Positions 34,750 through 57,474 of a stretch of DNA of 64,000 nucleotides are shown in pieces. Origin of the DNA: Cellulophaga sp. 20_2_10. Its GTDB lineage: Bacteria > Bacteroidota > Bacteroidia > Flavobacteriales > Flavobacteriaceae. Each line of letters begins with the position of its first letter. The first letter of the stretch is position 1. The stretch spans positions 248,001-312,000 of the forward strand of contig NZ_JAMCOJ010000003.1 of NCBI RefSeq assembly GCF_023476645.1, given 5' to 3'. Under the pieces are notes generated by a model. It saw only the letters and a program-made list of their open reading frames with translations, was not told the origin of the DNA and ran no database searches. Made by a program: the position numbers and the translations under genes.

Positions 34750-35160
34750 AATTCTGAGTTGTTACGTTAGGAGTTTTTAGTGACATAGTGTTCTGTGTTT
34801 AGCATTAGGAGCTTAAACATTTTTTCTTGTAGTTTTTTCTTTAAGATGTGATGCACTTGTTCTTTTAAAAAGTATAAATGTTAAAGGAAAAAATGCGGAC
34901 ATCGTAAAAATTAGTTTCATATCCCAAAAGAAACGTAAAAAACAGGGTCTCTATTTATCAATTTTACCTTTCGATAACATTATTTTAACCTTTTTGGTTA
35001 AAATGACTCGTATTTTGGGTAATGAGATGTGTTTTGGGGTAGGTGGCCTTTATAAGTTGATTTTTTCATCCTTAAAAGCTTTGGTTCTAGCGCTTAAGGA
35101 TGGGCATAAAAAAAACTCCTTAAAAATAAGAAGTTTGGTAATTAAAATTTTATGTGGTTA
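34750..35160. other. Non-coding region between susC and a sulfatase
   Basis: About 410 bp upstream of susC without a supported gene. It contains the terminator of the preceding sulfatase (35114-35135) and presumably the susC promoter. Plus-strand open frames here run into the sulfatase antisense and have no protein character. Confidence 0.5.
35114..35135 (-). terminator. Terminator downstream of the S1_19-like sulfatase
   Basis: On the minus strand AACTTCTTA, loop TTTT, TAAGGAGTT (one G-U pair) is followed by an eight-T run. It lies 26 bp after the sulfatase stop codon and separates it from susC. Confidence 0.75.
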
Positions 35161-36657: not shown

Positions 36658-38310
36658 CTAGTTAAGTTGCGCTAAATTGCCTTTCCAACCTTTGTTAAAT
36701 TGCACTAATAATTCAGATACAATTTCGGGGTTTTCTTTTGCGATATTTACGGTTTCAGTAGCGTCGTTATTGTGGTCGTAAAGTTCAATGAAAATAGGAT
36801 CAGCATTCTTGTCAGTGTAATCTTTCCAGACTATAAATCTGTAGTTTTTAGTTCGCATAGAGTATCCCATTAATTTATTTTCAAATAGGTCTCTATTCCA
36901 TTTATCTCCCTGTTGTTTTTTAATTCTCCCTTCAACTTCCTCTATTAAAGGACCAAAAGATGTTTCTTTCATTCCTTTAGATAAAGGGTTTGCTGCCCAT
37001 TCTCTTAAAGCAGGTGTAGGAAACTGACTAAATACTGCGGTTTTCCAGTCTTTTGCAGGGTTGCTTAATAAAGGTTTAAAGCTTTGTCCTTCTACTGTGT
37101 TAGGTACAGTTACCTCTGCTAAGTCACAAAGAGTAGGGTACATATCTACCAATTCTACTAAGGCATTTGTTTTTGTGCCTCTAATTTCTTTATCCATATC
37201 TGGAGTGGTAATTATTAAAGGTACTCTAGTTGCAATTTCATAATTGGTTGCTTTTCCCCAAATGCCCATATCTCCTAAGTGCCAACCGTGATCGCTCCAT
37301 AATATAACTATAGTGTTGTCTCTTTGACCAGACTCATCTAATGCTTTTAACATGCGACCTATTTGTGCATCTATGTAACTAACGCAAGCTAAATATGCGT
37401 GTTTTAATTTAATAGCTTGCTCGTCACTAATAGCTCCTTTTTTAGGAATATTAGCTCTTGCTCTTAATTCAAAAGAGGCGTGTAGGCCCATTGCTGCGCC
37501 ATCTTTAGGGCCATTTTTTTGCGCAGCTAACTTTATATCCTCTTCATTATATAAGTCCCAGTATTTTTTTGGAGCTTGCCAATCTAAGTGTGGTTTTTTC
37601 ATTCCTAAACCTAAGAAAAATGGTTTGTCTGGATTTTTACTTAGCATATCTTTTAAGGTAGCAATTGCTAAGTCCGTATTGTAACCGTCTTCATATTCAT
37701 TGTCGGGATAGTCTGCAAATTCATAAGCAGGACCTTTTCCTAGTCCGTTACGTAGTGCATTTTTACCGTATTTGGCAATCATTGCAGCACTGTTTTCCTT
37801 TTGCATCTTTATATTTTCTGGTAACTTGAAACCAAATTTCGGTTTTTTTTCACTGCTCATTGCACTATGCGGCACAGGCTTTCTACTCCATGACAGCTCT
37901 GGATCATTGTATTTTCCGTGAAAAATTTTACCAGTATGTACGGTTTCATATCCATTGGCCCAAAGGTTTTGTGGTAAGGTTACAATATCTGGGTTGGCTT
38001 CTCTAAAGTATGTAAAATTTTCAATAACCTTAATGCTTTCTGGTCTTGCACCAGTCATTAAGCTAGCTCTAGAAGGGCTACATATTGCTTCTTGGCAATA
38101 CGCATTGTTAAATTGTAAACCATTACTGGCCAAGGTATCTATGTTTGGTGTTATGGCAATCTCAGAGCCATATGTGCCTAATTCTGGACGTAAATCATCT
38201 ACAGCAATAAATAGAATGTTAAGCTTTTGTTTGGGTTCTTTTATTTTCTCTTTTTGTGATTGGCAACTGCTTATAAAGAAAAGTAGTACTATTAATTGCG
38301 CGTATCTCAT
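36658..38310 (-). CDS. S1-family sulfatase (iduronate-2-sulfatase-like, probable S1_7)
   Basis: The start at 38310 gives a clean lipoprotein signal (MRYAQLIVLLFFISSCQS). A second ATG four codons upstream is possible. Metal ligands VDDLRPELGTYG, formylglycine motif C-S-P-S-R (about residue 77) and LWSDHGWHLGDMGIWGK are all present. It is highly similar along its whole length to the sulfatase at 26377-27978. In carrageenan loci S1_7 enzymes act on kappa-carrageenan-type oligosaccharides after other desulfation steps. First gene of a two-sulfatase unit, divergent from the molybdenum hydroxylase. Confidence 0.85.
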   Translation of the reverse strand: MRYAQLIVLLFFISSCQSQKEKIKEPKQKLNILFIAVDDLRPELGTYGSEIAITPNIDTLASNGLQFNNAYCQEAICSPSRASLMTGARPESIKVIENFTYFREANPDIVTLPQNLWANGYETVHTGKIFHGKYNDPELSWSRKPVPHSAMSSEKKPKFGFKLPENIKMQKENSAAMIAKYGKNALRNGLGKGPAYEFADYPDNEYEDGYNTDLAIATLKDMLSKNPDKPFFLGLGMKKPHLDWQAPKKYWDLYNEEDIKLAAQKNGPKDGAAMGLHASFELRARANIPKKGAISDEQAIKLKHAYLACVSYIDAQIGRMLKALDESGQRDNTIVILWSDHGWHLGDMGIWGKATNYEIATRVPLIITTPDMDKEIRGTKTNALVELVDMYPTLCDLAEVTVPNTVEGQSFKPLLSNPAKDWKTAVFSQFPTPALREWAANPLSKGMKETSFGPLIEEVEGRIKKQQGDKWNRDLFENKLMGYSMRTKNYRFIVWKDYTDKNADPIFIELYDHNNDATETVNIAKENPEIVSELLVQFNKGWKGNLAQLN

Positions 38311-38603
38311 TGTATATATCAAAAAAGTTAATATTAAGTACTATCAAAATAACCTAAAATGAACAACTAAATATTCTTTTAATTTATCCATACCATACAC
38401 TATTTTACCCTATTTGTAAACGCCGTTGCTATTTTGGAGTATAGTAATTGGTTTTAGAACGAATAAAATCCTCTTTAAAACAAATTTGTATGATGTATTA
38501 TAGATAAAATAAAGTGTTAATAGGTTAAGTATAGCGGTTTGTTGTCCTTATTTTTGCGTAAATTGAAAACTTAGACATCTTTATAAAACTAAATAAAAGA
38601 TTT

Positions 38604-39062
38604 ATGACCAAGCTAAAAATTAATGGAGAAATACACACTATAGATGTAGATCCGGATATGCCTTTGTTATGGGCAATAAGAGATATTATAGGTTTTACTG
38701 GGACTAAATTTGGTTGTGGTAAAGGTTTTTGTGGTGCTTGTATGGTTTTAATGGATGGCAAGGCAGTAAATTCTTGTCAGCTTCCTGTTTCTTCTGTAGG
38801 TGAAAATGAATTAATTACTGTAGAAGGAGAAACAGAAAATCTTCAGTTGTTACAAAAATCTTGGGAAGAGCACAATGTCCCTCAATGTGGGTTTTGTCAG
38901 TCGGGTCAATTAATAACGGCAACAGCTTTGTTAAACGGTAATAGCAACCCGTCAGAAGAGGATATTAATAATGCTATGGTGCGTAATATTTGCCGTTGTG
39001 GTACATACCCTCGTATAAAAAAGGCTATTAACCATTCTGTAGAATTAAAAAACAAAGGCTAG
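38604..39062 (+). CDS. Molybdenum hydroxylase small subunit, two [2Fe-2S] clusters
   Basis: The 152-residue protein is a typical isoquinoline 1-oxidoreductase/aldehyde oxidase alpha subunit. The plant-type [2Fe-2S] motif is GCGKGFCGACMVLMDG (about 41-56) with a further Cys, and the helical-domain cluster has CGFCQSGQLI and ICRCGTYPRI. It carries electrons from the Mo site to an acceptor. No signal peptide, so it would be exported by hitch-hiking with the Tat-targeted large subunit. It is the first gene of a two-gene plus-strand unit inside the PUL, with a one-base gap to the large subunit. No cytochrome partner is adjacent. Confidence 0.9.
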   Translation: MTKLKINGEIHTIDVDPDMPLLWAIRDIIGFTGTKFGCGKGFCGACMVLMDGKAVNSCQLPVSSVGENELITVEGETENLQLLQKSWEEHNVPQCGFCQSGQLITATALLNGNSNPSEEDINNAMVRNICRCGTYPRIKKAINHSVELKNKG

Positions 39063-39063
39063 T

Positions 39064-41244
39064 ATGAAAGATGTAAAAAATGTAAGTCGTAGAAGCTTTT
39101 TAAAAGGTTTAGGTTTGGCTTCTGGAGGATTAATAATTGCTTCTGGAACAACTCTTTTTGTTGCTTGCGAGCCAAAAGATATAGTAGAATTTAATCCTAA
39201 TTTATTTGTTCAGCTTAATTCTGATGGAAATCTAATTTTGGTGGCATCAAGATCAGAAATGGGACAAGGGGTGCGTACTTCTTTAACATCTGTAATTGCA
39301 GATGAGATGGAGGCAGACTGGGATAGAGTTAGTATTTCTCAGGCAGTAGGTGATGTGAAATATGGCGATCAAAATACGGATGGTTCTAAAAGTGTACGTC
39401 TTCTGTTTGAAGAAATGCGTAAAATAGGCGCAGCTACAAAAGCAGTACTAATTGCTGCTGCAGCTAAAAAATGGGAAGTACCTGCATCAGAATTAAGAGC
39501 AGAAAATCATTTTGTTATAAATGCTAATGGTAAAAAAATAGGATTTGGAGATTTAGTAGAAATTGCTAAAACACTAGATGTACCTAAAGATGTACAGCTA
39601 AAAGACCCTAAAGATTTTAAATATATAGGTAAGTATTTACCAAGTAAAGATGTTGTAACATTATCTAATGGTAGCGCAGTTTTTGGTTTAGATAAGCGTG
39701 TAGATAATATGAAGTTTGCAGCAATAAAACGTTGTCCTGTTGCTTTTGGAACTGTAAAATCTTATGATAAAACAGCTGCCTTAAAAATAAAAGGTGTTAT
39801 AGATGTTGTAGAAATTCCTATGTTGCGTAAGCCTTTTGGTCCTTTAGGAGGTGTTGCTGTTGTAGCAACAAATACTTGGGCAGCTTTTAAAGGCAAAGAA
39901 GCATTAAAAGTACAGTGGGATCTGGGTGATAATAACACTTATGATTCTGAAGAGTATATGAAGCAATTAACAGCTAACGTACATAAAAAAGGAAAGGTTG
40001 CAAAAACGGTTGGAGACGTAGAAGACGCATTTAAAAAAGCATCTAAAACCATAGAAAGTACATACCAATTGCCACATTTAGTACATGCGCCAATGGAAGT
40101 TCCAAATGCGGTTGTTTGGGTTCAAGGAACTACCTGCGAAGTATGGGCGCCAACGCAAGAGCCGCAGCGAACAAGAACAGAAGTTAGTGCCTTTTTAGAA
40201 ACTGGAGAAGAAAATGTAACAGTTAATGTTACCTTTTTAGGTGGTGGATTTGGTAGAAAATCTAAGCCAGATTATATTGTAGAAGCTGCAGCTGTTTCTA
40301 AAGCCATTAATGCTCCTGTGCAAGTTGTTTGGACAAGAGAAGATGATATACAACATGGTTACTACCATACCGTGGCGGCACAATATATGAAAGGCGGTTT
40401 AGATAAAGAAGGTAAGGTAACTGGTTGGTTGCATCGTTTTGCATTGCCTTCTATAGCGTCTACTTTTGCTCCAGGTACTGTAGATCCTGCTCCTTTTGAA
40501 TCTGCAAGTGCTACAAACGTACCTTTTGAGATTCCTAACATGCAAGTAGAAACAGGTGAAGCGCCAGCACACGTTAGAATAGGTTGGTTGCGTTCTGTAA
40601 TTAATATTCCACACGGTTTTGCTATAAATGTTTTTGCTGATGAATTAGCGAATGAAGCAGGTATAGATCCGTTAGAGTTTAGATTAAATCTTATTGGTAG
40701 CGACCGTATTGAAGAGACAAAAAATGAATATAAATACGATACTGCTCGTTTAAAACATGTGCTAAAGCAAGCTGCTAAAAACGCAGAATGGGGTAAAAAA
40801 TTACCAGAAGGTCATGCAATGGGACTTGCAGTACATTACAGTTTTTTATCTTATGTAGCTTCTGTAGTTGAGGTATCTGTTATAAACAATAGAGTAAAAG
40901 TACACAATATACATTCTGTTATAGATTGTGGTTTGGCTGTAAACAAAAATACAATTACGGCGCAAATGGAAGGTGCTGCTATTTTTGGTATGTCTCTTGC
41001 TTTTTATGGTAAAATAACGGCAAAAGACGGAGCTATAGAACAAACCAATTTTGGTGATTATCAAATGTTACGTATGCCGCAAGCACCAAAAATACATGTA
41101 GAGATTGTTGAAAATAACGAAAAACCAACAGGTGTTGGTGAGCCAGGTGTGCCAGTTATTGCACCCGCAATTGTAAATGCAATTTTTAAAGCAACGGGTA
41201 CTAGGTACAAAACATTGCCACTTAAAGATCATAAGTTAGTTTAA
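39064..41244 (+). CDS. Tat-targeted molybdenum hydroxylase large subunit (aldehyde oxidase type)
   Basis: The 726-residue protein has a twin-arginine signal (VSRRSFLKGLGLASGGLIIA) and the xanthine-dehydrogenase-like molybdopterin domains of the IorB/aldehyde dehydrogenase group: EMGQGVRTSL, GGGFGRKSKPDYIVEAA and PTGVGEPGVPVIAPAIVNA, the last containing the catalytic Glu. Such enzymes hydroxylate aldehydes or N-heterocycles with water and a Mo cofactor. Its presence inside a carrageenan locus, in the periplasm, suggests an aldehyde substrate such as open-chain 3,6-anhydro-galactose, but this is inference. No Mo-insertion gene is present here. A strong bidirectional terminator follows. Confidence 0.88.
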   Translation: MKDVKNVSRRSFLKGLGLASGGLIIASGTTLFVACEPKDIVEFNPNLFVQLNSDGNLILVASRSEMGQGVRTSLTSVIADEMEADWDRVSISQAVGDVKYGDQNTDGSKSVRLLFEEMRKIGAATKAVLIAAAAKKWEVPASELRAENHFVINANGKKIGFGDLVEIAKTLDVPKDVQLKDPKDFKYIGKYLPSKDVVTLSNGSAVFGLDKRVDNMKFAAIKRCPVAFGTVKSYDKTAALKIKGVIDVVEIPMLRKPFGPLGGVAVVATNTWAAFKGKEALKVQWDLGDNNTYDSEEYMKQLTANVHKKGKVAKTVGDVEDAFKKASKTIESTYQLPHLVHAPMEVPNAVVWVQGTTCEVWAPTQEPQRTRTEVSAFLETGEENVTVNVTFLGGGFGRKSKPDYIVEAAAVSKAINAPVQVVWTREDDIQHGYYHTVAAQYMKGGLDKEGKVTGWLHRFALPSIASTFAPGTVDPAPFESASATNVPFEIPNMQVETGEAPAHVRIGWLRSVINIPHGFAINVFADELANEAGIDPLEFRLNLIGSDRIEETKNEYKYDTARLKHVLKQAAKNAEWGKKLPEGHAMGLAVHYSFLSYVASVVEVSVINNRVKVHNIHSVIDCGLAVNKNTITAQMEGAAIFGMSLAFYGKITAKDGAIEQTNFGDYQMLRMPQAPKIHVEIVENNEKPTGVGEPGVPVIAPAIVNAIFKATGTRYKTLPLKDHKLV

Positions 41245-41323: not shown

Positions 41324-43429
41324 TTATTCCCAAACAACTGGTAAAAACACAGTCATTTCGCTTTCTTTTTCATTATTTCTGTTAGACCAAGCGTAATAAG
41401 GAACAAAGGTAGTATTGTATGTTTCCCATTGCGGTTTGTTTACTTTGTGGTACATTTTATCAGCTTTACTGGCATCTTTACGTAATAAAACGTTTCCTGT
41501 GATGGCAGACACACCGCCTAAGAAATCTGGTCTGTATTCAGATGTAAGTTGTGATGCATCACCTTTAATAAACACATCTAAAATACTAGTATCCTTAGGT
41601 AAATCTGCAGATTCTACGCAGTATACAAGAGGACCTCTTTTTATAGCTACCTGGTTACGTACTTCTTCAATACGCTCATGGCCTTCTACAAAGTTTATGT
41701 CTAATGGCATTGCAATGCGTAGTACATCATCTTTTTTCCATTCGCGTGTAATCGTAGTAAACTCACCAGCTTTTATAGTGGCATCAACTTCTTTACCATT
41801 TACTAAAACCTTTGTGTTTTCTGCCCAATCCGGAATTCTAACAAGCATATCAAAAGGAGTACTTTTACAGGCTTGCATTGTTATTTTTACATCTCCATTC
41901 CATGGGTACGCCGTTTCTTGTTTCAATTCTATTTTAGAACCATCTGTAAGTGTCGATTTTAGTGTGTTGCCACCATAAAGGTTAACGGCAATACCATTTT
42001 TAGATTTGCTGTATGCCCAGCCAGATACTTTTGCAATGGTACGCACAAGGTTAGGAGGACAACAAAAACAATCTAAATACGCTTGTCTTGTAGGGAATTC
42101 CGTGTTCATTTTATCATAATCTCTAGAACCGTGAATTACTCTAAGTGGGTTGGCGTAGTAATACCTATCTCCTTCTAAATTGATACCAGATAAAGCACTG
42201 TTGTACAATACCGTTTCCATAATGTCTGCGTATTTAGATTCTCCATGTACGCCTAACATACGGTAACTAAACATTGAGTTACATACATTAGCGCAAGTCT
42301 CGTTATACGCGGTCATATTAGGCATCATATACTCGTCTATAAAGCCTTCTTCTATTTTATCTCTGTTGGTAGATGCTCCGTAGTGAGTTTGACCTACAGC
42401 ACCAGTTACATACATTTTTTTAAGTGCAACATTCATCCATAGTTTGTCTAAAGCATCAATTAAAGCTTGTTCTCCGGTTTCAGCATAAACATCTGCCGCT
42501 CCTGCGTAATAATACAATGCTAACACAGCATGGCCAACAGCTTCGTCAGACTTGCGTAAAGGTGTGCGTTCTTGTACCATATCTCCAATAGGATACCCTT
42601 TTGTTTCTGCTGTTTCTGCAACTTTGTAAGATCCTCTGTTGTTAATAAATTTCTCTGCTAACTCTAAATAGCGTTTGTCATTTGTTGTTCTGTACAATTC
42701 TACCAAGCCCATAATTTGGGTTTGGTTAAATCCAAATCGACCATAACGCTCATCATCTGTCATAAATAACGAGTGCAATAAGTCTGCGTGTTTAACAGCA
42801 ATGTCTAAAAAGTTAGTCTGACCAGTAATTCTGTAATGAATACAAGCACTAGTTAATAAGTGTCCAGAATTATACATTTCATGAAACTTTCGGTTTTCAT
42901 ACCTAGAACGATCTTTGTTTAATTGTATCTGTGTTTGTAGGTAGCCATCTTTTTCTTGTGCTTTTCCAATGATATCAATATAACTATCTATTTCTTTTAA
43001 TAAAGCCTCATCTTTATTTTGAGCGTAAACATACATTGTAGCTTCCATAAACTTATAAAAGTCACCGTCATGCCAATGCATTCCTTTGTGCTCACCTTCT
43101 TTTAAGCCAGCAGCAATTTTAAAGTTGTTTAAGGCGTGGCCAGTATCACCAGTCAACAGACTACGCATATAGGGAACCATTTTTGTTTCGGCAATTTTAA
43201 ATTTATCTGCCCAAAAGCCTTCTGTCCATTGGCAATCTCCCATATCTATGCTTTTAAAAGCAACATGCGGACTATTGGCATTATTTATAATACCTGCATT
43301 AGGATCTAAGTTTAGAGCTAGATCTTTACTTTCTGTATTTGCAGTTGCTTCCGGAACCTTTGCTTTTTTATCTTGTCCACAAGAGGAAAGTACCAGAGTA
43401 CTAAAGGCTATAAGTGTAAAGTGTTTCAT
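41324..43429 (-). CDS. GH127 glycoside hydrolase (probable 3,6-anhydro-D-galactosidase)
   Basis: The start at 43429 preserves a lipoprotein signal (LIAFSTLVLSSCGQ). The ATG at 43477 would overlap the upstream sulfatase gene. The Zn-binding residues of GH127 (HypBA1-type Glu338, Cys340, Cys417, Cys418) are present as Glu377, Cys379, Cys456 and Cys457, with the same 79-residue spacing. HypBA1 is a beta-L-arabinofuranosidase. In Zobellia carrageenan loci GH127 members cleave terminal alpha-1,3-linked 3,6-anhydro-D-galactose, and the neighbouring S1 sulfatases, GH129 and anhydro-galactose pathway favour that here. It follows the sulfatase by 28 bp. Long antisense frames within it are not genes. 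Confidence 0.85.
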   Translation of the reverse strand: MKHFTLIAFSTLVLSSCGQDKKAKVPEATANTESKDLALNLDPNAGIINNANSPHVAFKSIDMGDCQWTEGFWADKFKIAETKMVPYMRSLLTGDTGHALNNFKIAAGLKEGEHKGMHWHDGDFYKFMEATMYVYAQNKDEALLKEIDSYIDIIGKAQEKDGYLQTQIQLNKDRSRYENRKFHEMYNSGHLLTSACIHYRITGQTNFLDIAVKHADLLHSLFMTDDERYGRFGFNQTQIMGLVELYRTTNDKRYLELAEKFINNRGSYKVAETAETKGYPIGDMVQERTPLRKSDEAVGHAVLALYYYAGAADVYAETGEQALIDALDKLWMNVALKKMYVTGAVGQTHYGASTNRDKIEEGFIDEYMMPNMTAYNETCANVCNSMFSYRMLGVHGESKYADIMETVLYNSALSGINLEGDRYYYANPLRVIHGSRDYDKMNTEFPTRQAYLDCFCCPPNLVRTIAKVSGWAYSKSKNGIAVNLYGGNTLKSTLTDGSKIELKQETAYPWNGDVKITMQACKSTPFDMLVRIPDWAENTKVLVNGKEVDATIKAGEFTTITREWKKDDVLRIAMPLDINFVEGHERIEEVRNQVAIKRGPLVYCVESADLPKDTSILDVFIKGDASQLTSEYRPDFLGGVSAITGNVLLRKDASKADKMYHKVNKPQWETYNTTFVPYYAWSNRNNEKESEMTVFLPVVWE

Positions 43430-43457
43430 ATTTTTAAATTGAGTATAAGTTAGTTTG

Positions 43458-44912
43458 TTATTTGTTGTCTTTTTCAAATTGACGCTTCTCTTTTAAGGGA
43501 GTAGTGTATTGTTCCATTTCTTTTTTTACCATTTCTGGAGTTCTATAACGATCCATACGGTCTATATCGTAATTCTCAAAACTTCTTTTTAACATCCAAA
43601 GTGGTCGCTGTAATGTAGACTCCCATTCAAACATTTTTTTAAACATAGATTTTACTTTGTCTGGATGTTTAAATGCAATATTGTTTTGTTCTGCAGTGTC
43701 TTTAGATAAATCATATAACTCTGCGGGTCTGTCTGCAAAGCGTATTAATTTCCAATCGCCCTCTCTGTAGGCAAGTCTTACTTCTTTTTTCCAAAATAGA
43801 GTATTGTGCGGTCTAGCATTATTTTCGCCATTTATAAAAGGCAAAAGATTAACACCGTCTATATCTTTTAAATCTTCAGTTTTTCCACCTCCTGCTGCGT
43901 AAAAAGTAGGTAATAAGTCTAAAGTGCTAACAGGGTAATTGTATTCAGATTTTGATTTTATCTGTTTTGGCCAACTGATTAAATAAGGCACTCTTATGCC
44001 GCCTTCTAGATGGTTAGATTTTGTACCGCTTAACGGTAAGTTTAAAGATGCATTTTTATCTGTTGGTCCGCCATTATCGTTAGAGAAAACTATAATTGTG
44101 TTTTTATCTAATCCAAGTTCTTTTAATTTGTTTATTACTTTGCCACAGGCTCTGTCGAGTGCTAAGGTCATAGCAGCTAACTCTTTTCGTTTACCGTATA
44201 AGTTAGGAAACTTTGCTAAATCTTCTTTTGTTGCTTGCATTGGTGTGTGTACAGCATTAAAAGCTAAGTATATAAAAAAAGGATTGTTTTTGTTTTTTTG
44301 AATAAACGAAACTGCTTCGTTTGCCAAGGCATCTGTTACGTACTTTGTTGGTTCTTGGTAATTGCCAAAACCTCTTTCCATTCTGTTATCTAAATTGGCT
44401 TTAGAAACATCATTGTAGCCAAAGTAACTACGCGCGCCACCTCTAAATCCGTAAAATTCATCAAAACCTCTTTTTGTTGGGTGGTAACGGTCGGCATCAC
44501 CTAAATGCCATTTGCCGTACATAGCAGTTTTGTAACCTAATTTTTTTAGGTAATCGGCAATCGTTAATTGGTCTAAAGGCAAACCCATATCGTCTGCTAC
44601 ATACTTAGAGTTGTTGCTCATGTACCCAGGGACATTTATTTCTTCATATCCAAAACGTTGTTGGTATTTACCTGTAATTAAGCCCGCTCTAGATGGTCCG
44701 CAAGTGGCATCTGTAACATAGCCTTGGGTAAATTTTGCCCCAGACTTTGCTAATTTATCAAGGTTTGGAGTCTTCATTACTGTACTGCCTTGAAATCCGA
44801 AATCTGCATAACCAGCATCATCAGAAAACAAGAAAACAATGTTTGGTTGTTTTTGTGCTTGTAGCTGTATAGCAACAAAAACTAATAATAGGTATAAAAT
44901 ACTTTTCTTCAT
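43458..44912 (-). CDS. S1-family sulfatase (probable S1_17-like)
   Basis: The start at 44912 gives a good signal peptide ([20 protein letters not shown]). A five-codon longer form is possible. Metal ligands [16 protein letters not shown], formylglycine motif C-G-P-S-R (about Cys71), [13 protein letters not shown] and FSNDNGGP are all present. In a carrageenan locus a sulfatase next to GH127 and GH129 would act on terminal sulfated galactose or anhydro-galactose. S1_17 is suggested by the gene order known from Zobellia, not by sequence alignment. Adjacent to GH127. Confidence 0.82.
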
Positions 44913-45401: not shown

Positions 45402-48659
<3,258 letters not shown>

Positions 48660-50717
48660 TTAGTCTTCTAGCAAGCTAACTTGATAGCTTCCTTTATTAA
48701 TTTCACCATTTTCTCTGGTAACGTAATAGCCATAACCAGGAATCGTTTGTCCGTTTTCAATTTTCTGATCTACATTACCTACGTTAACAATTACAGTAGT
48801 GCCATTAGAAAATTTTGTGCGCTGTACTTTAAAATCTTTGCTTAGGTATTCGTGACTAACTAATTCTGCATAAAATGTTTCTTTGTGTATTGGTGCTACT
48901 AATTTGTTGGCCATTTTAATCATACTAGCCATGCCATTAAACTCATATGGAGCAAAGAAAATAGTTGTTCCTCTACCAAAAAGTATGCTACGTAATGACT
49001 TTATTCTAAAATCACCATTGTTAGTAACCTCGTTGTCTGGATCTTGTATTTTGCCAAATACGGCAATAGCATCATGATACACAAGACTAAAAAGTGGTGC
49101 TTTTTTGGATATATTTCCAAGTGGAGGATTACCTAAATAAGTCATACCTTCAAACATATCAAAATAAGGAATCCAAGCCTCTTGTCCATGTTCTGTCCCG
49201 TTTACAAGGTTTAAAGAATCTATATATTGAGCTAGTGCAATACGTCCCTCTTTCCCTTTTTCTCTGTACGCAGCAAATGTAATATCTGTAATATCTGCTT
49301 TTAAGTTTAACGCTTTTATTTCTTCAGTAATGTGTTTTTTTGCTAAGCCTAATTGATATTTACTATCTACACGTGCCCATCTGCTATTGGTTTCTTGCAG
49401 GTTTCCTTTAGCATCTTTCCACATAAATTCTGTTGAAAAATTTGGATCGTTCTCTAACAAAGCAGAGTAGGAGTGGTATGATGAGTATAAGTAACCATAT
49501 TTGTTAGTTAAGTCTACTGCTTCTTTAAGTTTTTTAACGCCACCAAGTTCTTCACTTATTGGCCAATTGTTAGGTACGTAGTTAGAGAAAGTTCCCCAAG
49601 CGTGTATAAAAGCATTGTCTACTTTTAATGTGTCATGTATTGTAGTAATCATATCTTTTAAATCGTCAAAAGTAAAAGCCATACCAGGCATATTTACATA
49701 ATGAGGATAGCCACCGTAAATACCAAAATAGATAGAACCCGGTAGTTTATCTACATCTGGGTTTCTTGCTAGTTTATCTTTTAAAGAAACAAAATGACCA
49801 CGTTTTTTAGCTTCTTTTCTGTATTCTTTAGCCATATCTACGTAATCTCCATTTGGAATAAAAGAGTAGGTTATACCGCCAATTGTTTGGTTGGGTTTTG
49901 ATATGTCCCATACAGGATCTAAAAACTGTATTCTTTGGTAGGTAGACATTTTACCATCTGCATTAAATAAATACTGACCGTTATTATTAATGTTAAAAAA
50001 TAGTTTTGGTCTTACGTCTTTATCAATAATACCAACAACAGCAGATTTTTTATTGTAGGTTCCCCACCAAGGCATAGATAAACCAGTGCCATTGTTAAAA
50101 AGATCTAAAGTGCCAATAGATTTACCGTTATATGTGGTATCATCCCACTTACAAAATCGACCTCCGTTCATTGGAAAAATATAAGACGGACAAATAACGC
50201 CTTGCTTTTGTGGTATTACTGCAGCTCCTATATCTTGGTCTGTTTTTAAACTAAAGTGACGAGATGGATACCTTAAACTTATTAGTTTGTGGTTGCTAGA
50301 ATTGTAGCTTATAATTTCTGCTCTTAATTTAGATGTTTTGGTGTCTAAACTTAATCTAGTTTGTAGTGTTACACCTTTGGCTATAGAGCCATCGTTAAAA
50401 GTAGGATTGCTAAATGTGATGACAACCGTATTCTTATCTTTTTTAGTCAGTTCAATTTTTTTACTGTTAGATATGTTTACTGTTTGCTTGGCTTTTTTGC
50501 TATCTAAAAGTGTTAATAGACCAGCAGCATTTTCCCAAGGATCTGGATTCCAAACTTGACCTGAATTTTTTTCAACCACGGTAAAATTTCCTGTAGTATT
50601 ATCTACGGTAACTTTAACTTTGCTATCTTCTAGTACTACTGGATTTTGTGCATGTAAAAAACCTGAATGTATCAATAAGATAATGGAGGTTAAGAGAATT
50701 TTTTTAATAATTTTCAT
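48660..50717 (-). CDS. GH129 family glycoside hydrolase (probable 3,6-anhydro-D-galactosidase)
   Basis: The 685-residue protein has a signal peptide (LLTSIILLIHSGFLHAQ), an N-terminal beta-sandwich-like part and a (beta/alpha)8-like core with IHAWGTFSNYVPNNWPISEEL, YGYLYSSYHSYSALL, then DITDITFAAYREKGKEGR and GTEHGQEAWIPYFDMFEG. This is the layout of GH129, a family that includes a Bifidobacterium alpha-N-acetylgalactosaminidase and Zobellia alpha-1,3-(3,6-anhydro)-D-galactosidases. The D-anhydro-galactose pathway next to it supports the second activity. Its start overlaps the aldolase stop by four bases (ATGA), so it is coupled to the sugar acid genes. Catalytic residues are not pinned down here. 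Confidence 0.8.
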   Translation of the reverse strand: MKIIKKILLTSIILLIHSGFLHAQNPVVLEDSKVKVTVDNTTGNFTVVEKNSGQVWNPDPWENAAGLLTLLDSKKAKQTVNISNSKKIELTKKDKNTVVITFSNPTFNDGSIAKGVTLQTRLSLDTKTSKLRAEIISYNSSNHKLISLRYPSRHFSLKTDQDIGAAVIPQKQGVICPSYIFPMNGGRFCKWDDTTYNGKSIGTLDLFNNGTGLSMPWWGTYNKKSAVVGIIDKDVRPKLFFNINNNGQYLFNADGKMSTYQRIQFLDPVWDISKPNQTIGGITYSFIPNGDYVDMAKEYRKEAKKRGHFVSLKDKLARNPDVDKLPGSIYFGIYGGYPHYVNMPGMAFTFDDLKDMITTIHDTLKVDNAFIHAWGTFSNYVPNNWPISEELGGVKKLKEAVDLTNKYGYLYSSYHSYSALLENDPNFSTEFMWKDAKGNLQETNSRWARVDSKYQLGLAKKHITEEIKALNLKADITDITFAAYREKGKEGRIALAQYIDSLNLVNGTEHGQEAWIPYFDMFEGMTYLGNPPLGNISKKAPLFSLVYHDAIAVFGKIQDPDNEVTNNGDFRIKSLRSILFGRGTTIFFAPYEFNGMASMIKMANKLVAPIHKETFYAELVSHEYLSKDFKVQRTKFSNGTTVIVNVGNVDQKIENGQTIPGYGYYVTRENGEINKGSYQVSLLED

Positions 50718-51385
50718 AGTTTGGTTTTTGTAGTTCTCAATTGTAAGTATGCTTTAATCTCTGCTTTAATATTTTTAAAATGTTCTGCTAAACCATTAAA
50801 ATCATTGTTTTTGATAAGCTCTTTGTCTAGTAGGGAGCTGCCCATGCCAACACCAGTTGCACCTGCGGCAAAAAATGAAGCAATATTTTCTTTAGTAACA
50901 CCACCCGTAGGTAGTACTTTTATTTTATTTAATGGTGCTAGTATGTCTTTTACAAAAGTAGGACCTAGCTGTGTAGCAGGAAAGATTTTTACCTCGGAAG
51001 CACCCAAAGACCAAGCTTTGTAAATTTCTGAAGGAGAGTAAGCGCCCGGGAAAATAGGAATACCATCTGCTACTGCTTTTTTTATAACTTCTTCATTAAT
51101 TATAGGGGTTACAATAAATTGTGCCCCTGCAGAAATAGCATTGTTATAATCTTCTATAGAGCAAACTGTACCTGCGCCAACATTTAAATTTGGAAATTTA
51201 GATTGTATTTCTGTAATAATTTCTGTAGCGCCAACAGTGTTCATTGTTATTTCTATGGTAGATAAACCAGCTGTAACGTACGCGTTGGCGATACCTATAA
51301 TTGTTTCTAAAGGTAGGTTTCTAACAATACCTACAATTGGTGCTTTGTTGTGTAATTTCCAGTTAAAGGGTTTGTGCGTTTTCAT
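50714..51385 (-). CDS. dauD: 2-keto-3-deoxy-6-phosphogalactonate aldolase
   Basis: The 223-residue class I aldolase has the KDPG/KDPGal aldolase signature: Glu45 (STIEITMN), GAGTVCS, the FPGAYSP segment and the Schiff-base Lys133 (ASEVKIFPA), followed by LPTGGVTKENIASFF. It cleaves 2-keto-3-deoxy-6-phosphogalactonate to pyruvate and glyceraldehyde-3-phosphate in the cytoplasm. It follows the kinase with a 23-base overlap and precedes GH129, the order of the carrageenan pathway. The symbol follows the dau genes of the D-anhydro-galactose pathway; the family alone would allow KDPG aldolase. Confidence 0.85.
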   Translation of the reverse strand: MKTHKPFNWKLHNKAPIVGIVRNLPLETIIGIANAYVTAGLSTIEITMNTVGATEIITEIQSKFPNLNVGAGTVCSIEDYNNAISAGAQFIVTPIINEEVIKKAVADGIPIFPGAYSPSEIYKAWSLGASEVKIFPATQLGPTFVKDILAPLNKIKVLPTGGVTKENIASFFAAGATGVGMGSSLLDKELIKNNDFNGLAEHFKNIKAEIKAYLQLRTTKTKL

Positions 51386-52322
51386 ATTGTAATAAAATTT
51401 TCTTTTGACCTAATAACAATGCATTCTCTAATATTTTATCATCTAAGAGAATTAGGTGTTTTGGATTAATTATTTGCTTTAAGGCTATTTTGTATAGGCT
51501 AAAAACGGGATCGGGTGCTACTAAAAATATGTTTTCGGTAGTTTCTTCTAAGTAGCTAATTTCATCACCAATTAAAAGTCCACTTAAAAAATAATAATTT
51601 TCTTCTTTTGTTCTAATTTGAAGTAAATCCTTAGCTCTAATTGAAAATAAACTAACACTTAATTGTGCTTGTAGTCCAAGTTGAACACCTTCTAGAAAAG
51701 GTTTTTCTAGAACAGTTGATGAGGTAGTGCTAACCGAATTAACTAAGATGCTTTTTTTAGAAAGTATCTCAAATAATTCACCAGTCATATAGTTCTTTAA
51801 TTCAGTGTAAATTCCGTTGTTGTATGTAATGTGTTTACTGTGTGTTCCTGGTAGTAAAAGAACTCCTTTTTTGTATTTTTTTAATTCTTGTTCTAATCCT
51901 ATGGCCTGTATTTCTTCGCCACGCATCATTCCGGAACTGGTTTTAGCTCCAGAAACTAAAAGTACTTCTAGGTGGTTGTTAAAAATTAAATGTTTCCAAA
52001 TTAAATTATTTCCTGAAGCATTTAAAGGAAAATCGGCATAGTTAAGCTCAAACAAACCAATATTGGCAGATGCCATACCTGCGGCAACAATTAAATGTTT
52101 TTGATGCTCCTTAGGTAGGCTAGATACTTGTTCTTTTAAGTAATCTGCAAAAAACTGTGTTTGCTCTTTTTCTCGTTGTTTGGAGAATTTTTCATAGAGA
52201 GATTTTATTCCACAATCTGTTTTGTGCTCTACAATAATAGTAAGCGTATTTGTTTCTATAACACGCAACCTAAAGTTAGATGTTCCCCAATCGCAACTAA
52301 TAAAATAATCTGGTAGTGCCAT
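51363..52322 (-). CDS. dauC: 2-keto-3-deoxygalactonate kinase
   Basis: The 319-residue protein is a DgoK-type kinase: ISCDWGTSNFRLRVIE at the N-terminus (phosphate-binding), GMASANIGLFELNYADFPL, GMMRGEEIQAIGL and LLLPGTHSKHI. It phosphorylates 2-keto-3-deoxygalactonate, the product of the cycloisomerase, and feeds the downstream aldolase. Its ATG starts immediately after the aldehyde dehydrogenase stop, and it overlaps the aldolase by 23 bp, so the block is a tight operon. It is the kinase of the D-anhydro-galactose route as in Zobellia, by context. Confidence 0.87.
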   Translation of the reverse strand: MALPDYFISCDWGTSNFRLRVIETNTLTIIVEHKTDCGIKSLYEKFSKQREKEQTQFFADYLKEQVSSLPKEHQKHLIVAAGMASANIGLFELNYADFPLNASGNNLIWKHLIFNNHLEVLLVSGAKTSSGMMRGEEIQAIGLEQELKKYKKGVLLLPGTHSKHITYNNGIYTELKNYMTGELFEILSKKSILVNSVSTTSSTVLEKPFLEGVQLGLQAQLSVSLFSIRAKDLLQIRTKEENYYFLSGLLIGDEISYLEETTENIFLVAPDPVFSLYKIALKQIINPKHLILLDDKILENALLLGQKKILLQYENAQTL

Positions 52323-53771
52323 TTAGTTTAATGCTTTAGTAACTCTTTTTTTAATTAAATAATCATCTAATGCATAGGTAGAACAGTCTACACCAATACC
52401 GCTGTTTTTTACACCACCGTGTGGCAAGTAAATATCATACTTAACTCCGTTTAGTTGTACTTCTCCAAATTCTAATTTGTTTGCAAAGTAGGCAAGAGTT
52501 TCGTCGTTTTTAGAAAATACATACGATGCTAAACCTGCATCTGTATTGTTAGCTAATTCTATAACTTCTTCTTTTGTCGTAAACGGAACAATAAATGCTA
52601 CAGGCCCAAAAACTTCCTGTTGTAGAATTTCTGGATTAGAGTTTTTAAATGTTATTGCTGTAGGTTCAAAATAATAACCAGGTTGGTCTATTGTTTTACC
52701 ACCGTACTGTATTTCTCCGCCTTGTTTAACAGCTTCGTTAACTATGTGTTGTACTTTAACTACAGATTGCCTGTTGGTTAAAGGTCCCATTTGTGGCTTA
52801 TTTTCTTTACCAAAACCAATAGTTGTATTTTTAAATTTATCTACAATACCTTCTGTGAATTTTTTGATCACAGACTTGTGAATGTAAAACCTGTTTGGAG
52901 CAACACATATTTGTCCTGTATTGCCAACTTTTAATGCTGCACCTATATTAATTGCAAGTTCTAAATCTGCATCGTCAAAAACAATAAAGGGGGCGTTGCC
53001 ACCACACTCCATACTGTATCTTTTTATAGACGTTTTACTGCTTTGCTCTATTAATTTTTGAGCAGTTTCTGTAGAGCCAATCATTGTTATTAAGCGCGGA
53101 ATTTTACTTTCGCAGAGCGGAATGCCTACGTTAGATACATCACCACAAATAACTGTAACGACACCTTTTGGAAAGTCAATTTCGTGACAAATTTCTCCTA
53201 TAATATATGCAGATAGTGGTGAGAATTCTGAAGGTTTAAGTATCACACTACAGCCAGCAGCTAATGCAGGTCCTAGTTTAAAACCTAAATTTAATAAAGG
53301 AAAGTTATAAGCTAAAAAGGCAACGCCAACACCAAGAGGTTGTGAAACAATTTTATGTTCGTGTGAGCCTTCTTTGTCTTCTATTTCTATATCGTGGCGT
53401 TTTGCAATTTCTTCAGAATAGTATTCTAGAGAATTGGTAATACTTGTTAGGTCTTCTTCACTTCCTTCCCAAGTTTTCCCCATTTCATGCATTATACTAC
53501 TGCGCAGTACATCACTTTTTTCTAGAATTTTAGTTCGTAGTTTGCCTATCCAATTTAAGCGTTCTGTTAAAGGTAGGTTAGACCAGTATTTAAATCCTTC
53601 TTGTGCAGTTGTTAAAGCTAATTCTGTATCTTCTTTGCTTGCCCAGGCAATGTTTGCAACAGGTTTTTCATCAGCAGGACATATTACATCAAAAGATGCC
53701 CCATTAGAAGCATCCCTTAATTCTCCATTTATATATAATTTTTTATTACCGAATTCCAAATCTTTTTTCAT
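52323..53771 (-). CDS. dauA: NAD(P)-dependent aldehyde dehydrogenase (probable 3,6-anhydro-D-galactose dehydrogenase)
   Basis: The start at 53771 (MKKDLEFGNKKLYINGE) is preferred over 53792, which lies deeper in the upstream gene. The ALDH fold is complete: AYNFPLL with the conserved Asn, KPSEFSPL, GST, MECGGNAPF with the general base Glu255, and GNTGQICVAPNR with the nucleophile Cys289. In the carrageenan pathway an ALDH oxidises 3,6-anhydro-D-galactose to the 3,6-anhydro-galactonate acid in the cytoplasm. It overlaps the cycloisomerase by 26 bp. Specificity is from context; related enzymes act on other aldehydes such as succinate semialdehyde. Confidence 0.82.
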   Translation of the reverse strand: MKKDLEFGNKKLYINGELRDASNGASFDVICPADEKPVANIAWASKEDTELALTTAQEGFKYWSNLPLTERLNWIGKLRTKILEKSDVLRSSIMHEMGKTWEGSEEDLTSITNSLEYYSEEIAKRHDIEIEDKEGSHEHKIVSQPLGVGVAFLAYNFPLLNLGFKLGPALAAGCSVILKPSEFSPLSAYIIGEICHEIDFPKGVVTVICGDVSNVGIPLCESKIPRLITMIGSTETAQKLIEQSSKTSIKRYSMECGGNAPFIVFDDADLELAINIGAALKVGNTGQICVAPNRFYIHKSVIKKFTEGIVDKFKNTTIGFGKENKPQMGPLTNRQSVVKVQHIVNEAVKQGGEIQYGGKTIDQPGYYFEPTAITFKNSNPEILQQEVFGPVAFIVPFTTKEEVIELANNTDAGLASYVFSKNDETLAYFANKLEFGEVQLNGVKYDIYLPHGGVKNSGIGVDCSTYALDDYLIKKRVTKALN

Positions 53772-54912
53772 TGTAGTGAGTTTCTTTGTCAAGGTATTTT
53801 TCTAATTCGTCCATATTTACATCCACACCTAAACCAGGAGTATTAGGAACGGTTAATAATCCGTTATCTACCGTAAGATCGCATTTTGTAACTATATCTC
53901 GCAGTGCATTTTCAGACCTATCTAATTCCATTGTTGGCAGATCATTGTACATTCTGCCAGGATTCTTATCTAGATTACCAACAAAATGAGCTGCAGCACT
54001 AATAGCAATCCAGGTACCCCAAGAATGTGGTACAATATCTTTATTAAATGCTTGGGCAAGAGTCGCAATTCTTTTGGCTTCTGTTAAGCCTCCGGAAGCA
54101 CAAATATCAGGTTGTGCAATGTCTACACATTCATTTTCTAATAATCTTTTAAATCCAAATTTTAGATACTCGCACTCGCCGCCAGCAATTGGTATTGTTG
54201 TATTTTCTCTTAGTTTTCTGTATCCTTCGTAATCTTCAGGAGATACTGGTTCTTCAAACCAAGAAATATTATATTTTTCTACTTTTCTGCAAAGTTCTAT
54301 GGCTTCTTGGTAGCTATAGGCGTGGTTGGCATCTATCATTAATCTAATATCATTGCCAATTGCATTACGTATTGCAGCTACATATTTTACATCTTCTTCA
54401 ATGCTTAAGCCAACTTTCATTTTTATCGCTTTAAAACCTTGAGACTTGTACAGCTTTGCTTCTTCGATTAAAACTTTTTCTAAATTATCTACGCGAGTAA
54501 AATACAATCCGGTAGCGTATGGTTGTATAATAGGGTTTTTTAATCCGCCTAAAAGAACGGCAACAGACTTATTTAGTATTTTTCCTTTAATATCCCATAA
54601 AGCAACATCAATAGCACTTAGCGCTGCTTGTAGGCTTCCGCTTCTGGCATAATCCATAGATCTTCTATACATTTCTTGCCATAAAACCTCGTGTTCAATG
54701 GCTTGTTTGCCTATTAAAAAAGGTTTAAAAAACTCTATACCTGCTTTAATTACGCCTGCAGGCCCATAGCCTTCTCCCCAACCATAAGTGCCGTCTTCTA
54801 ATGTAATTTTTACAAGACATATTTTCCTAGTGTTGTACTGCCATTGCGAAAAGTAAAAGGGAGTATCCAACTCATGGCTGATTACGTAAGGCTCTATGTT
54901 TTTTATCTTCAT
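53746..54912 (-). CDS. dauB: Enolase-superfamily cycloisomerase (probable 3,6-anhydro-D-galactonate cycloisomerase)
   Basis: The 388-residue protein is a mandelate racemase/muconate lactonising enzyme-type TIM barrel. The K-x-K base (FKAIKMKVG), metal ligands Asp (LMIDANHAYS), Glu (WFEEPVSPED) and Glu (IAGGECEY), and the opposite base His (DIVPHSWGTW) are all in place. In anhydro-galactose catabolism such an enzyme converts 3,6-anhydro-galactonate to 2-keto-3-deoxygalactonate. The next three genes encode the steps on either side. A sugar-acid dehydratase activity is the alternative, and the locus favours the cycloisomerase. Confidence 0.83.
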   Translation of the reverse strand: MKIKNIEPYVISHELDTPFYFSQWQYNTRKICLVKITLEDGTYGWGEGYGPAGVIKAGIEFFKPFLIGKQAIEHEVLWQEMYRRSMDYARSGSLQAALSAIDVALWDIKGKILNKSVAVLLGGLKNPIIQPYATGLYFTRVDNLEKVLIEEAKLYKSQGFKAIKMKVGLSIEEDVKYVAAIRNAIGNDIRLMIDANHAYSYQEAIELCRKVEKYNISWFEEPVSPEDYEGYRKLRENTTIPIAGGECEYLKFGFKRLLENECVDIAQPDICASGGLTEAKRIATLAQAFNKDIVPHSWGTWIAISAAAHFVGNLDKNPGRMYNDLPTMELDRSENALRDIVTKCDLTVDNGLLTVPNTPGLGVDVNMDELEKYLDKETHYNEKRFGIR

Positions 54913-56006: not shown

Positions 56007-56169
56007 TTTAATGTGGTTTTTTGTGTTAGTTGAAGGTATGGCAAGCGTGTGAGTAAATAACTCGTCATCCTTGTATCACAAAGAAACCCTAATATTAAAT
56101 GTGCGTATTGAAGAATTTTACCTTAGAGCGGCATTATTTTACCCTATAAGCACAAAATTGACAATTGTT

Positions 56170-57474
56170 TTAGTCTCTTAGAAGTATGTGGGCAATAAAA
56201 ACCATTAATCCGCCTGACAGCGAAACGATAGCTGTAAGTAGGCTAAAAGATTTTAGTAGTTTTGGAACGGATACATTGTGTATTTCTTTAAATAACCAAA
56301 AGAAGCTACTATTTACGTGTATAATTCCTAGCGATCCGGCACAAATTGCAGCTGTTGTAAATGTAGGGTCTAGTGTGCCGTTGCTAATTAGTGGTGCAAC
56401 AATAGAGGCTGTGGTGATTAGAGAAACGGTAATTGAGCCCGTAACAGTTGTAAAGAGCATGCTGAGTAGAAACGGTACAATTATACCCATGGAAGAGATT
56501 GACTCTGCATTGGAGAATAAAGAGCTAACAATGCCAGTGTCTTTTATTACTTGTCCAAAGGCACCACCTGTTCCCGTAATTAAAATAACGATGGCTGTTT
56601 TAGAACCTGCACTATTAAAATACGAATTTAATTTGGTAGAGAAGTTCTGTTTGCCAAGTAATGGTAATGCAAAAAGAATTCCGATTAGTAAGGACCATAT
56701 TGGGTTTTTTATAAATGCTATAAAAGCATTTTCTTCTGTAACAATTGCTCCTATAGACATTAATACAAGCGGAACTAATAAAGCGGCAAAAGGCAGTATC
56801 TTTTTATAGCCAGATAATTTCCTGTGTTCTACCTTGTTTATTTTGCTGCTATCTATGTCGCTGGCAGTTTGTAGATTTTTTTTATTGAATTTTAACCAAG
56901 TTAATCCTCCAATTATAGCTGCAATGGCTACAGCAACATTTAGGGGTATAATTTCGCCTACATTTATGTTAAAGGCAGATGCTACGGCTAATGGTCCAGG
57001 TGTTGGTGGTATTAGGGCGTGTGCAACGGTTAAACTCATGGCTAAAGATAATCCAAGGACTAAAATAGAGTGTCCAGATTTTTTAGATAGTACGTGTAAA
57101 GTGGGCAGTAGTGTTAGGTAAGCAACATCCATAAAAACTGGAATCCCAATTAAAAAGCCTATTGCGGCCATACTTAATGGAAGGTATTTAGTTCCGAAAA
57201 GGTTAATTATACTATCTGCAATTACGTCAGATCCGCCAGTGTTAGATAATATTTCCCCGAGTAAAGCACCAAAAAGGATAATTAAACCAATCCATTTTAG
57301 TGTATTACCAAATCCATTTAGTAAGCTTTCTGTTACGGTCGTAACCGAGCCTCCAGAAGCTAAGCCTAGAATTAGACCAAATACAAGTAAAGCAGGTATT
57401 GGGTGTATTTTAAAAACAGTAACTGTTACAATTAATAGAACTATACAGATTACTAAAATAATTAAGGCATGCAT
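56170..57474 (-). CDS. GntP-family gluconate-type permease
   Basis: The 434-residue inner membrane protein has 11-12 helices. It shows the GntP family signatures: PIPALLVFGLILGLASGG at the N-terminus, GGSDVIADSIINLFG, PVFMDVAYLTLLPT and HALIPPTPGPLAVA, with LITGTGGAFGQVIKDTG in the second half. GntP carriers move aldonates and related acids with protons. In this locus it might import 3,6-anhydro-galactonate or another acid produced in the periplasm. First gene downstream of the AraC regulator, and likely the start of the catabolic operon. Confidence 0.85.
   Translation of the reverse strand: MHALIILVICIVLLIVTVTVFKIHPIPALLVFGLILGLASGGSVTTVTESLLNGFGNTLKWIGLIILFGALLGEILSNTGGSDVIADSIINLFGTKYLPLSMAAIGFLIGIPVFMDVAYLTLLPTLHVLSKKSGHSILVLGLSLAMSLTVAHALIPPTPGPLAVASAFNINVGEIIPLNVAVAIAAIIGGLTWLKFNKKNLQTASDIDSSKINKVEHRKLSGYKKILPFAALLVPLVLMSIGAIVTEENAFIAFIKNPIWSLLIGILFALPLLGKQNFSTKLNSYFNSAGSKTAIVILITGTGGAFGQVIKDTGIVSSLFSNAESISSMGIIVPFLLSMLFTTVTGSITVSLITTASIVAPLISNGTLDPTFTTAAICAGSLGIIHVNSSFFWLFKEIHNVSVPKLLKSFSLLTAIVSLSGGLMVFIAHILLRD

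Follow-up and report, generated by a model that had tools for sequence, protein, structure and literature searches.

Carrageenan is a major polymer of red algae, characterised by the sugar 3,6-anhydro-D-galactose (D-AnG). In the pathway known so far, this sugar is oxidised by the NAD-linked aldehyde dehydrogenase DauA. In Zobellia, the core of the carrageenan polysaccharide utilization locus (PUL) comprises dauA-D, dagA, cgsB, cgrA, cgtA and cgtB, the DagA enzymes are predicted to be periplasmic, and growth on D-AnG induces stress proteins (PMC5698469). PaoEFG of Pseudomonas putida and P. taiwanensis, in turn, oxidises a sugar-derived aldehyde, hydroxymethylfurfural (HMF), in the periplasm, and the resulting acid is then imported (PMC12064950, PMC11144800). 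Here, we report on two adjacent genes, encoding a [2Fe-2S] subunit (FeS) and a molybdopterin-binding large subunit (MoL), within a stretch of 64,000 nucleotides from Cellulophaga sp. 20_2_10 (contig NZ_JAMCOJ010000003.1, positions 248,001 to 312,000; hereafter the window), where they are surrounded by a carrageenan-type PUL. The enzyme is of a known type, here bound to a PUL, and we are highly confident that the pair is a dedicated component of such loci. Whether it acts as a PaoEFG-like periplasmic oxidoreductase, which would turn a carrageenan-derived aldehyde into an acid that is imported and enters catabolism at DauB, is evenly balanced in our judgement, and that D-AnG might be its main substrate is a slightly more tentative proposal, drawn from analogy.

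The MoL gene begins one base past the FeS stop codon, and both open reading frames (ORFs) are intact and on the same strand. The FeS subunit carries Fer2 (34.7 bits) and Fer2_2 (85.1 bits), and MoL carries MoCoBD_1 and MoCoBD_2, all of them above the Pfam cut-offs; coordinates and domains thus agree with a sequence-only reading of this DNA, which had described a complete two-subunit enzyme on the opposite strand between sulfatase and GH127 genes. The same reading had predicted that the Mo subunit is exported by the twin-arginine translocation (Tat) system on the motif SRRSFLKG, and such export remains a prediction. The motif lies within MoL residues 1-20, all 41 sequences of an alignment share R9 and R10, and TatC is encoded in the genome; the Pfam TAT_signal model scores 20.5 bits, just below its cut-off of 22.7. 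No export signal of its own was seen by eye in the translation of the FeS subunit. Also invariant across the 41 aligned sequences is E693 of MoL, in the motif GVGEPG, which we take to be the catalytic glutamate of the xanthine oxidase family. A gene for an FAD subunit was not among the neighbours of the pair, which are sulfatase and GH127 genes in the window and, as far as immediate neighbours are labelled, other genes in the relatives. Judged by its domains, the pair is of the two-subunit FeS plus molybdenum type of the xanthine oxidase family, without an adjoining FAD subunit, and aldehyde oxidation is its predicted reaction. The closest solved structure to MoL is PDB 8gy3 chain C (residues 3-721, E 1.5e-90), the PaoC chains of Escherichia coli being far weaker matches (5g5h_C, E 2.8e-27). 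Because none of the NCBIfam equivalog cut-offs is reached by the pair, the family name by itself gives no substrate. Among named relatives, MoL is 97% identical in Cellulophaga fucicola, 92% in C. omnivescoria and 84% in C. baltica.

A scan of GTDB genomes with MoL yielded named loci for the best 79 of 135 relatives, and in seven of these (L003, L004, L005, L007, L008, L017 and L019) the pair is surrounded by carrageenan PUL genes. With the window and two more genomes (G089 and G101) this gives ten PUL pairs spanning Cellulophaga, Maribacter, Algibacter and two further genera; Cellulophaga contributes four of the ten, and the independent genera number about five. We also searched 397 Flavobacteriaceae genomes, accepting MoL at E 1e-200 or better and DauA at E 1e-130 or better. 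MoL was found in 17 genomes, DauA in 35 and both in seven, six of which carry the two on one contig and no more than 36 kb apart. A DagA-type GH127 is present in 27 of the 35 DauA genomes, not always close to DauA; of these 27, 6 have MoL, as opposed to 11 of the 370 others (Fisher p 4e-4, kinship ignored). As most genomes that combine DauA and DagA lack it, MoL is not a core carrageenan PUL gene. For G064 and G229, whose contigs measure only 8.8 and 3.8 kb, the surroundings of the pair are not visible. The sequence-only reading had left room for a chance insertion, which the co-occurrence with carrageenan PULs makes unlikely.

Phylogeny points the same way. In a tree built on FeS and MoL together (28 rows from 97 extracted sequences, with duplicates and more distant ones excluded), the ten PUL pairs group as a single clade with support of 100/99 when placed with 18 other flavobacterial pairs, and none of 500 label shuffles was equally clustered; a faster and wider tree, of 51 MoL rows without FeS, recovered the same group with support of 74. 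Three of the pairs outside the clade come from DauA genomes (G255 and Flavobacterium 7A and 28A), where they are located away from the dau genes. At ten loci outside PULs, for which one member of each family was scanned, the pair is always followed by a MobA-like gene and XdhC is present in seven; ten further non-PUL pairs, read from short loci, have a MobA-like gene in five. Within the clade, M. vaceletii is instructive. Compared with Maribacter G015, its DauA is 91% identical, DauB 85%, the AraC regulator 98% and GH2 79%, whereas MoL and FeS are each 71% identical; compared with Algibacter mikhailovii, MoL reaches 81% and FeS 92%, and DauA only 51%. In the FeS and MoL tree, too, the M. vaceletii pair is placed with those of Algibacter. 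Because the pair is Algibacter-like while the dau genes are Maribacter-like, we consider that the pair has very probably been exchanged between carrageenan PULs independently of the dau genes. As for other genes of that locus, the major facilitator superfamily (MFS) gene leans towards Algibacter (87 vs 80%) and the mandelate racemase/muconate lactonizing enzyme (MR/MLE) gene towards Maribacter (89 vs 83%). A pseudogene was considered for M. vaceletii dauA because of one TAA in the match and was rejected, as the ORF is open, 478 aa long and 77% identical over its full length; this TAA most likely sits directly 5' of the start codon. Both subunits are under purifying selection in Cellulophaga, as are GH127 and one sulfatase, with dN/dS of 0.04-0.08 for MoL and 0.01-0.08 for MoL and FeS taken together, one FeS comparison being saturated. 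In Maribacter G015, moreover, the pair stands in line within the GH127-sulfatase run. All in all, the pair appears to be an accessory part of carrageenan PULs in flavobacteria, and its passage between these loci is strongly indicated.

In the window, the pair lies on the strand opposite to that of the PUL genes, which include sulfatases, SusCD, GH127, GH2, a GH129-like enzyme, dauA-D, RhaT, GntP and AraC, all on the minus strand (Table 1). From GH127 to AraC, the gene order is that of ZGAL_3150-3159 (ORFs of at least 150 aa, GH2 apart; compared with Table 1 of PMC5698469), with the qualification that ZGAL_3158 as GntP is our own reading. The D-AnG pathway, GH127, sulfatase, AraC, SusC and SusD occur together, the sulfatases being assigned by family only, and both gene set and gene order bear out the earlier assignment to a carrageenan-type PUL.

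Table 1. Positions in the window of the gene pair and of the PUL features discussed
Feature	Position	Strand	Basis
[2Fe-2S] subunit (FeS; Fer2 + Fer2_2), 152 aa	38604..39062	+	Pfam; both cysteine motifs read in translation
Molybdopterin-binding large subunit (MoL; MoCoBD_1/2), 726 aa, twin-arginine N-terminus	39064..41244	+	Pfam, alignment
S1-type sulfatase, divergent neighbour of the FeS gene	36658..38322	-	Pfam
Divergent intergenic region common to the sulfatase operon and the FeS gene	38323..38603	.	
Strong motif copy AGGGTAAAATAGTG	38398-38411	- (towards sulfatase)	in divergent region 38323..38603
GH127, probable alpha-1,3-(3,6-anhydro)-D-galactosidase (DagA type), convergent neighbour, would free D-AnG	41324..43477	-	family and place as ZGAL_3150
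GH2 enzyme	45402-48632	-	profile scan
KDPG/KDPGal aldolase (DauD)	50714..51385	-	order as ZGAL_3153
2-keto-3-deoxy-galactonokinase (DauC)	51363..52322	-	
Aldehyde dehydrogenase (DauA type), NAD route	52323..53792	-	
MR/MLE enzyme, 3,6-anhydrogalactonate cycloisomerase (DauB type), proposed entry of imported acid	53746..54912	-	
GntP-type sugar-acid permease, proposed acid importer	56170..57474	-	TIGR00791 260 bits, cut-off 293
AraC-family regulator, CgrA position (ZGAL_3159), candidate reader of the motif	57600..58484	-	

No cytochrome or Mo-cofactor gene adjoins the pair in the window, as had been noted before; the accompanying statement that the electron acceptor was not known holds less well now that relatives can be compared. 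A cytochrome c gene adjoins the pair in three of the ten PUL loci (G101, A. mikhailovii and Algibacter G006) and lies one SMP-30/gluconolactonase-like (SGL) gene away in two more (M. vaceletii and G089), which makes five in total. By reading, with one copy scanned, these are monohaem proteins with a CxxCH motif and a signal peptide. No such gene was seen within the stretches read of the Cellulophaga loci and Maribacter G015. The window's genome encodes, at L178:1486-2955, a multicopper-type protein, by reading probably a nitrite reductase, with a C-terminal cytochrome c-like domain. As to the cofactor, MobA-like and XdhC genes stand at the pair in G101, and the single XdhC of the window's genome is clustered with genes named by reading as MocA-, MoeA-, ThiF/MoeB-, MobA- and MoaA-like, next to a second FeS-MoL pair that is 36% identical to the first (G000:C1:484000-503999, L180). 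Since XdhC and cofactor genes are thus available elsewhere in the genome, supply in trans to the window pair is plausible.

Genes that could handle the acid product were read widely in seven PULs, that of the window and those of six relatives. Six of the seven contain GntP-like or galactonate-transporter-like genes, neither type being found in 60 kb of G101, and an MFS and an MR/MLE gene share the PUL in five of the six relatives (five of the ten loci). The A. mikhailovii copies of these two are best matched by D-galactonate transporter and galactonate dehydratase models, both under the cut-off. Both genes are also carried by three genomes that lack a close MoL, in two cases visibly within a carrageenan PUL. 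A coupling of MoL with the MFS and MR/MLE genes was set aside as strong evidence: in the unbiased 27 genomes it amounts to 3/6 vs 3/21 (p 0.10), and the figure for 31 DauA and DagA genomes (5/8 with PUL-type MoL vs 3/23 others, p 0.013) comes from a biased set, which four genomes (G006, G010, G011 and G015) entered via MoL matches, and from an MFS cut of at least 77% identity that we chose ourselves. Galactonate transporter- and dehydratase-like genes adjoining a sulfatase, mostly in carrageenan PULs, are located at L007:935-3396 and L008:4745-7223, with equivalents in L159, L161, L173 and L186-L188, and are possibly a second entry to 2-keto-3-deoxy-galactonate.

The most elaborate arrangement is that of M. 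vaceletii, where seven genes lead in one run into the pair and FeS starts three bases past the last of them. They encode a 2-oxo-3-hexenedioate decarboxylase-like protein, an IlvD/EDD dehydratase, GntP, a tautomerase-like and a 2-oxopentenoate hydratase-like protein, acetaldehyde dehydrogenase and 4-hydroxy-2-oxovalerate (HOA) aldolase. GntP, acetaldehyde dehydrogenase and the aldolase score above the model cut-offs, and the IlvD/EDD protein passes subfamily PRK06131, reaching 797 bits against a cut-off of 882 for L-arabinonate dehydratase. Because permease and dehydratase genes occur by the pair, acids seem to be handled close to the oxidase genes. The insertion of this meta-cleavage-type lower pathway, with IlvD/EDD and GntP, in a carrageenan PUL (L005:2548-9536; contig 100994-107982 in L158) is an observation in its own right, and a non-phosphorylative route for 2-keto-3-deoxy-galactonate would be a speculative explanation of it. 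HOA aldolases 77-81% identical were found in five other flavobacteria with same-pathway neighbours and with no FeS-MoL in the fetched stretches. Elsewhere, a HpcH/HpaI-type aldolase gene adjoins dauA in G089 at the place expected for dauD/dauC (L162:11361-12125), which fits a published suggestion of a non-phosphorylative variant, and four other PULs have unlabelled ORFs of 253-261 aa next to dauA, likened to this aldolase by size alone. SGL genes adjoin MoL in two PULs (L162:177-1136 and L005:12060-13178), and one, identified by similarity only, adjoins a DagA-type GH127 in Flavobacterium 28A (L202:8633-9589); these are possible lactonases for a sugar-acid product.

A shared sequence motif is found in the intergenic region by the pair. 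The motif, AGGGTAAAATARTG, was first noticed on the minus strand at three operon heads of the window (34978-34991, 38398-38411 and 56132-56145), and a weak copy towards FeS lies about 105 bases before that gene. In the window alone it matches five times at up to two mismatches, a number reached by 11 of 100 shuffles. At the same stringency, 13 sites were found in 94 intergenic stretches (17.6 kb) of the six relatives' PULs, against 0.78 expected from shuffles (at most 3 in any of 100) and 9 in 269 kb of coding sequence. All 13 face the next gene, at 71-242 bases; the two Maribacter loci account for 11 of them, whereas G101 and Algibacter G006 have none. When a matrix was trained on other operon heads, a site of at least 14 bits is seen near the pair in 7 of the 10 PUL loci and in none of 11 controls (best 11.7), the cut having been picked after seeing the scores and the control stretches being mostly shorter. 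This site is in the stretch adjoining the pair in the four Cellulophaga loci and G089, before the gene run holding the pair in M. vaceletii, and, in A. mikhailovii, 409 bases away, where it is reached only if a small ORF is included in the stretch. The sites near the pair face the neighbour gene, except in A. mikhailovii, which has one each way. We regard AGGGTAAAATARTG as a site that may be bound by the AraC-family regulator CgrA, which might also control the pair itself. When promoters were compared by 20-mers, the FeS strand gave nothing above shuffles, and the opposite strand, for which no shuffle comparison was made, provided the lead to the motif; a sigma-70 consensus scan found 14 sites, with 13.9 expected.

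The facts from Zobellia and the PaoEFG precedent are what lead us to infer periplasmic oxidation of D-AnG, a cytochrome c acceptor, import of the acid and its entry at DauB; co-export of the subunits and co-regulation of the pair are further proposals. Oxidation of D-AnG in the periplasm, as a second route beside the cytoplasmic dehydrogenase, had also been put forward by the sequence-only reading, which is supported in part, its substrate being still a proposal. The two subunits would be assembled with molybdopterin in the cytoplasm and exported jointly via Tat on the signal of the Mo subunit. DagA enzymes would free D-AnG in the periplasm, where the pair would oxidise it to 3,6-anhydro-D-galactonate, and electrons would pass from molybdenum through the two [2Fe-2S] clusters to a periplasmic cytochrome c, which might be the product of the neighbouring gene in five of the ten loci and some other one in Cellulophaga. 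A sugar-acid permease, GntP in this case, would then take up the acid, which would join the pathway at DauB and bypass DauA. A broader reading would be that some carrageenan degraders split this oxidation between compartments, with a Mo enzyme wired to cytochrome c and respiration so that the acid is imported and the toxic D-AnG aldehyde need not enter; with a module of FeS, Mo subunit and often cytochrome c passed between carrageenan PULs; and with genes for an IlvD/EDD dehydratase, a sugar-acid permease and a meta-cleavage-type lower pathway attached to this module in M. vaceletii. Taken as a whole, this broader reading is possible and is offered with some reserve. If true, the acid would be the imported form, electrons would go straight to respiration and the cell would be shielded from the aldehyde; carrageenan use would be tied to molybdenum supply, a use would be suggested for the sugar-acid permeases of carrageenan loci, and a respiratory-linked molybdoenzyme would count as a dedicated PUL part.

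Several findings weigh against periplasmic D-AnG oxidation as the role of the pair. In Zobellia, deletion of dauA abolishes growth on D-AnG (PMC5698469), and no such periplasmic route therefore works in that organism; since Zobellia nonetheless has a transporter gene, ZGAL_3158, at the place of GntP, this permease is not specific support. MoL at E 1e-200 is missing from 21 of the 27 genomes with DauA and DagA, so carrageenan can generally be used without the pair, and 11 of the 17 MoL genomes lack the DauA and DagA combination, from which it follows that the wider MoL family has another job. In Flavobacterium 7A and 28A, which do have DauA and DagA, the pair is located elsewhere in the genome and outside the clade; as a similar cytochrome c is encoded near these non-PUL pairs, this gene is no special mark of PULs. 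With the M. vaceletii cytochrome as query, the window's genome gives a match only at the end of a larger protein, of 489 aa and multicopper-type by reading. The FeS-facing copy of the motif is not significant in the four Cellulophaga taken together (p 0.04-0.14). Finally, ten positions, by the rule applied, separate the PUL pairs from seven non-PUL pairs, but none is inside the three active-site motifs RIGWLRSV, GVGEPG and GGGFGRK, and these are much alike in PUL and non-PUL pairs.

This last likeness makes a broad aldehyde oxidase a serious rival, although on balance we find it rather unlikely. The pair would then be kept by the PUL for periplasmic detoxification of D-AnG, HMF-like products and oxidised phenolics of red algae, outside the feeding pathway. 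Such a role would suit the ten non-PUL loci, which have MobA-like (10/10) and often XdhC genes (7/10) in place of PUL genes, and the stress proteins induced by D-AnG in Zobellia (PMC5698469). PaoEFG does oxidise HMF (PMC12064950), and a Gluconobacter membrane-bound aldehyde dehydrogenase, molybdopterin-dependent according to its authors and related to 8gy3 by our assumption, oxidises a furan aldehyde (PMC11924602). What detoxification leaves unexplained is that a single clade resides in carrageenan PULs, apparently passed between them, and that in M. vaceletii the pair shares a run with a sugar-acid permease and a dehydratase.

Quite unlikely, in our view, is a role in oxidising the galactose half of carrageenan. 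The five loci out of ten with MFS and MR/MLE genes, together with the resemblance of the A. mikhailovii copies to galactonate proteins and the near-cut-off score of the M. vaceletii IlvD/EDD for L-arabinonate dehydratase, speak in its favour; yet all these scores are below the cut-offs, no MFS match was found at 1e-100 in the window's genome, and three genomes that lack a close MoL have the MFS and MR/MLE genes too, visibly within a carrageenan PUL in two cases. Galactose, besides, is mostly in ring form and a poor substrate for the xanthine oxidase family. That the pair is carried along by chance and contributes nothing to carrageenan use is very improbable, its opposite strand and its absence from 21 of 27 genomes notwithstanding, as ten pairs across several PUL arrangements form one clade, have apparently moved between PULs and are under purifying selection.

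The sequence-only reading had also placed the enzyme outside the described Zobellia pathway. With regard to function this still holds, as we found no description of an enzymatic role for the pair in the open-access literature searched, and the terms "molybd", "isoquinoline" and "xanthine" are absent from the main text of the Zobellia expression paper (PMC5613140). The presence of the gene in carrageenan PULs, by contrast, is not new: "OXR" (isoquinoline 1-oxidoreductase), which is the annotation of the pair's family, is named in the legend of Fig. 9, on carrageenan PUL conservation, of Ficko-Blean 2017 (PMC5698469). In Flavobacterium IR1, moeA deletion shifts colony colour, particularly strongly on kappa-carrageenan, with several PUL proteins up and some molybdoenzymes down (PMC12758843).

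When set beside these known systems, the likeness to OXR is one of family annotation only, the part of that paper at hand giving no function, partner subunit, clade or mechanism (PMC5698469). DauA, encoded in the same PUL, shares with the pair the net oxidation we propose, from aldehyde to acid, but it is NAD-linked, of an unrelated family and probably cytoplasmic. The large subunit of the aldehyde dehydrogenase in 8gy3 (chain C) resembles MoL in its Tat-like start and in the GWLRSV and GEPGV motifs of the alignment. It presumably comes from Gluconobacter oxydans, and thus from another bacterial group with another substrate class. E. coli PaoABC, unlike the window pair, has an additional FAD subunit. 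It shares with the pair the character of a Tat-exported enzyme of the xanthine oxidase family, its subunits being co-exported (PMC4273604). PaoEFG was described as an HMF detoxifier, whereas the window pair lies in a carrageenan PUL and has no cytochrome c subunit encoded with it, and the two are likened by description and not by sequence; in that description, PaoEFG joins a 2Fe-2S protein and a molybdopterin subunit, as found here, to a cytochrome c as third part, in the same compartment, the periplasm, that we propose for the Cellulophaga enzyme (PMC12064950, PMC11144800).

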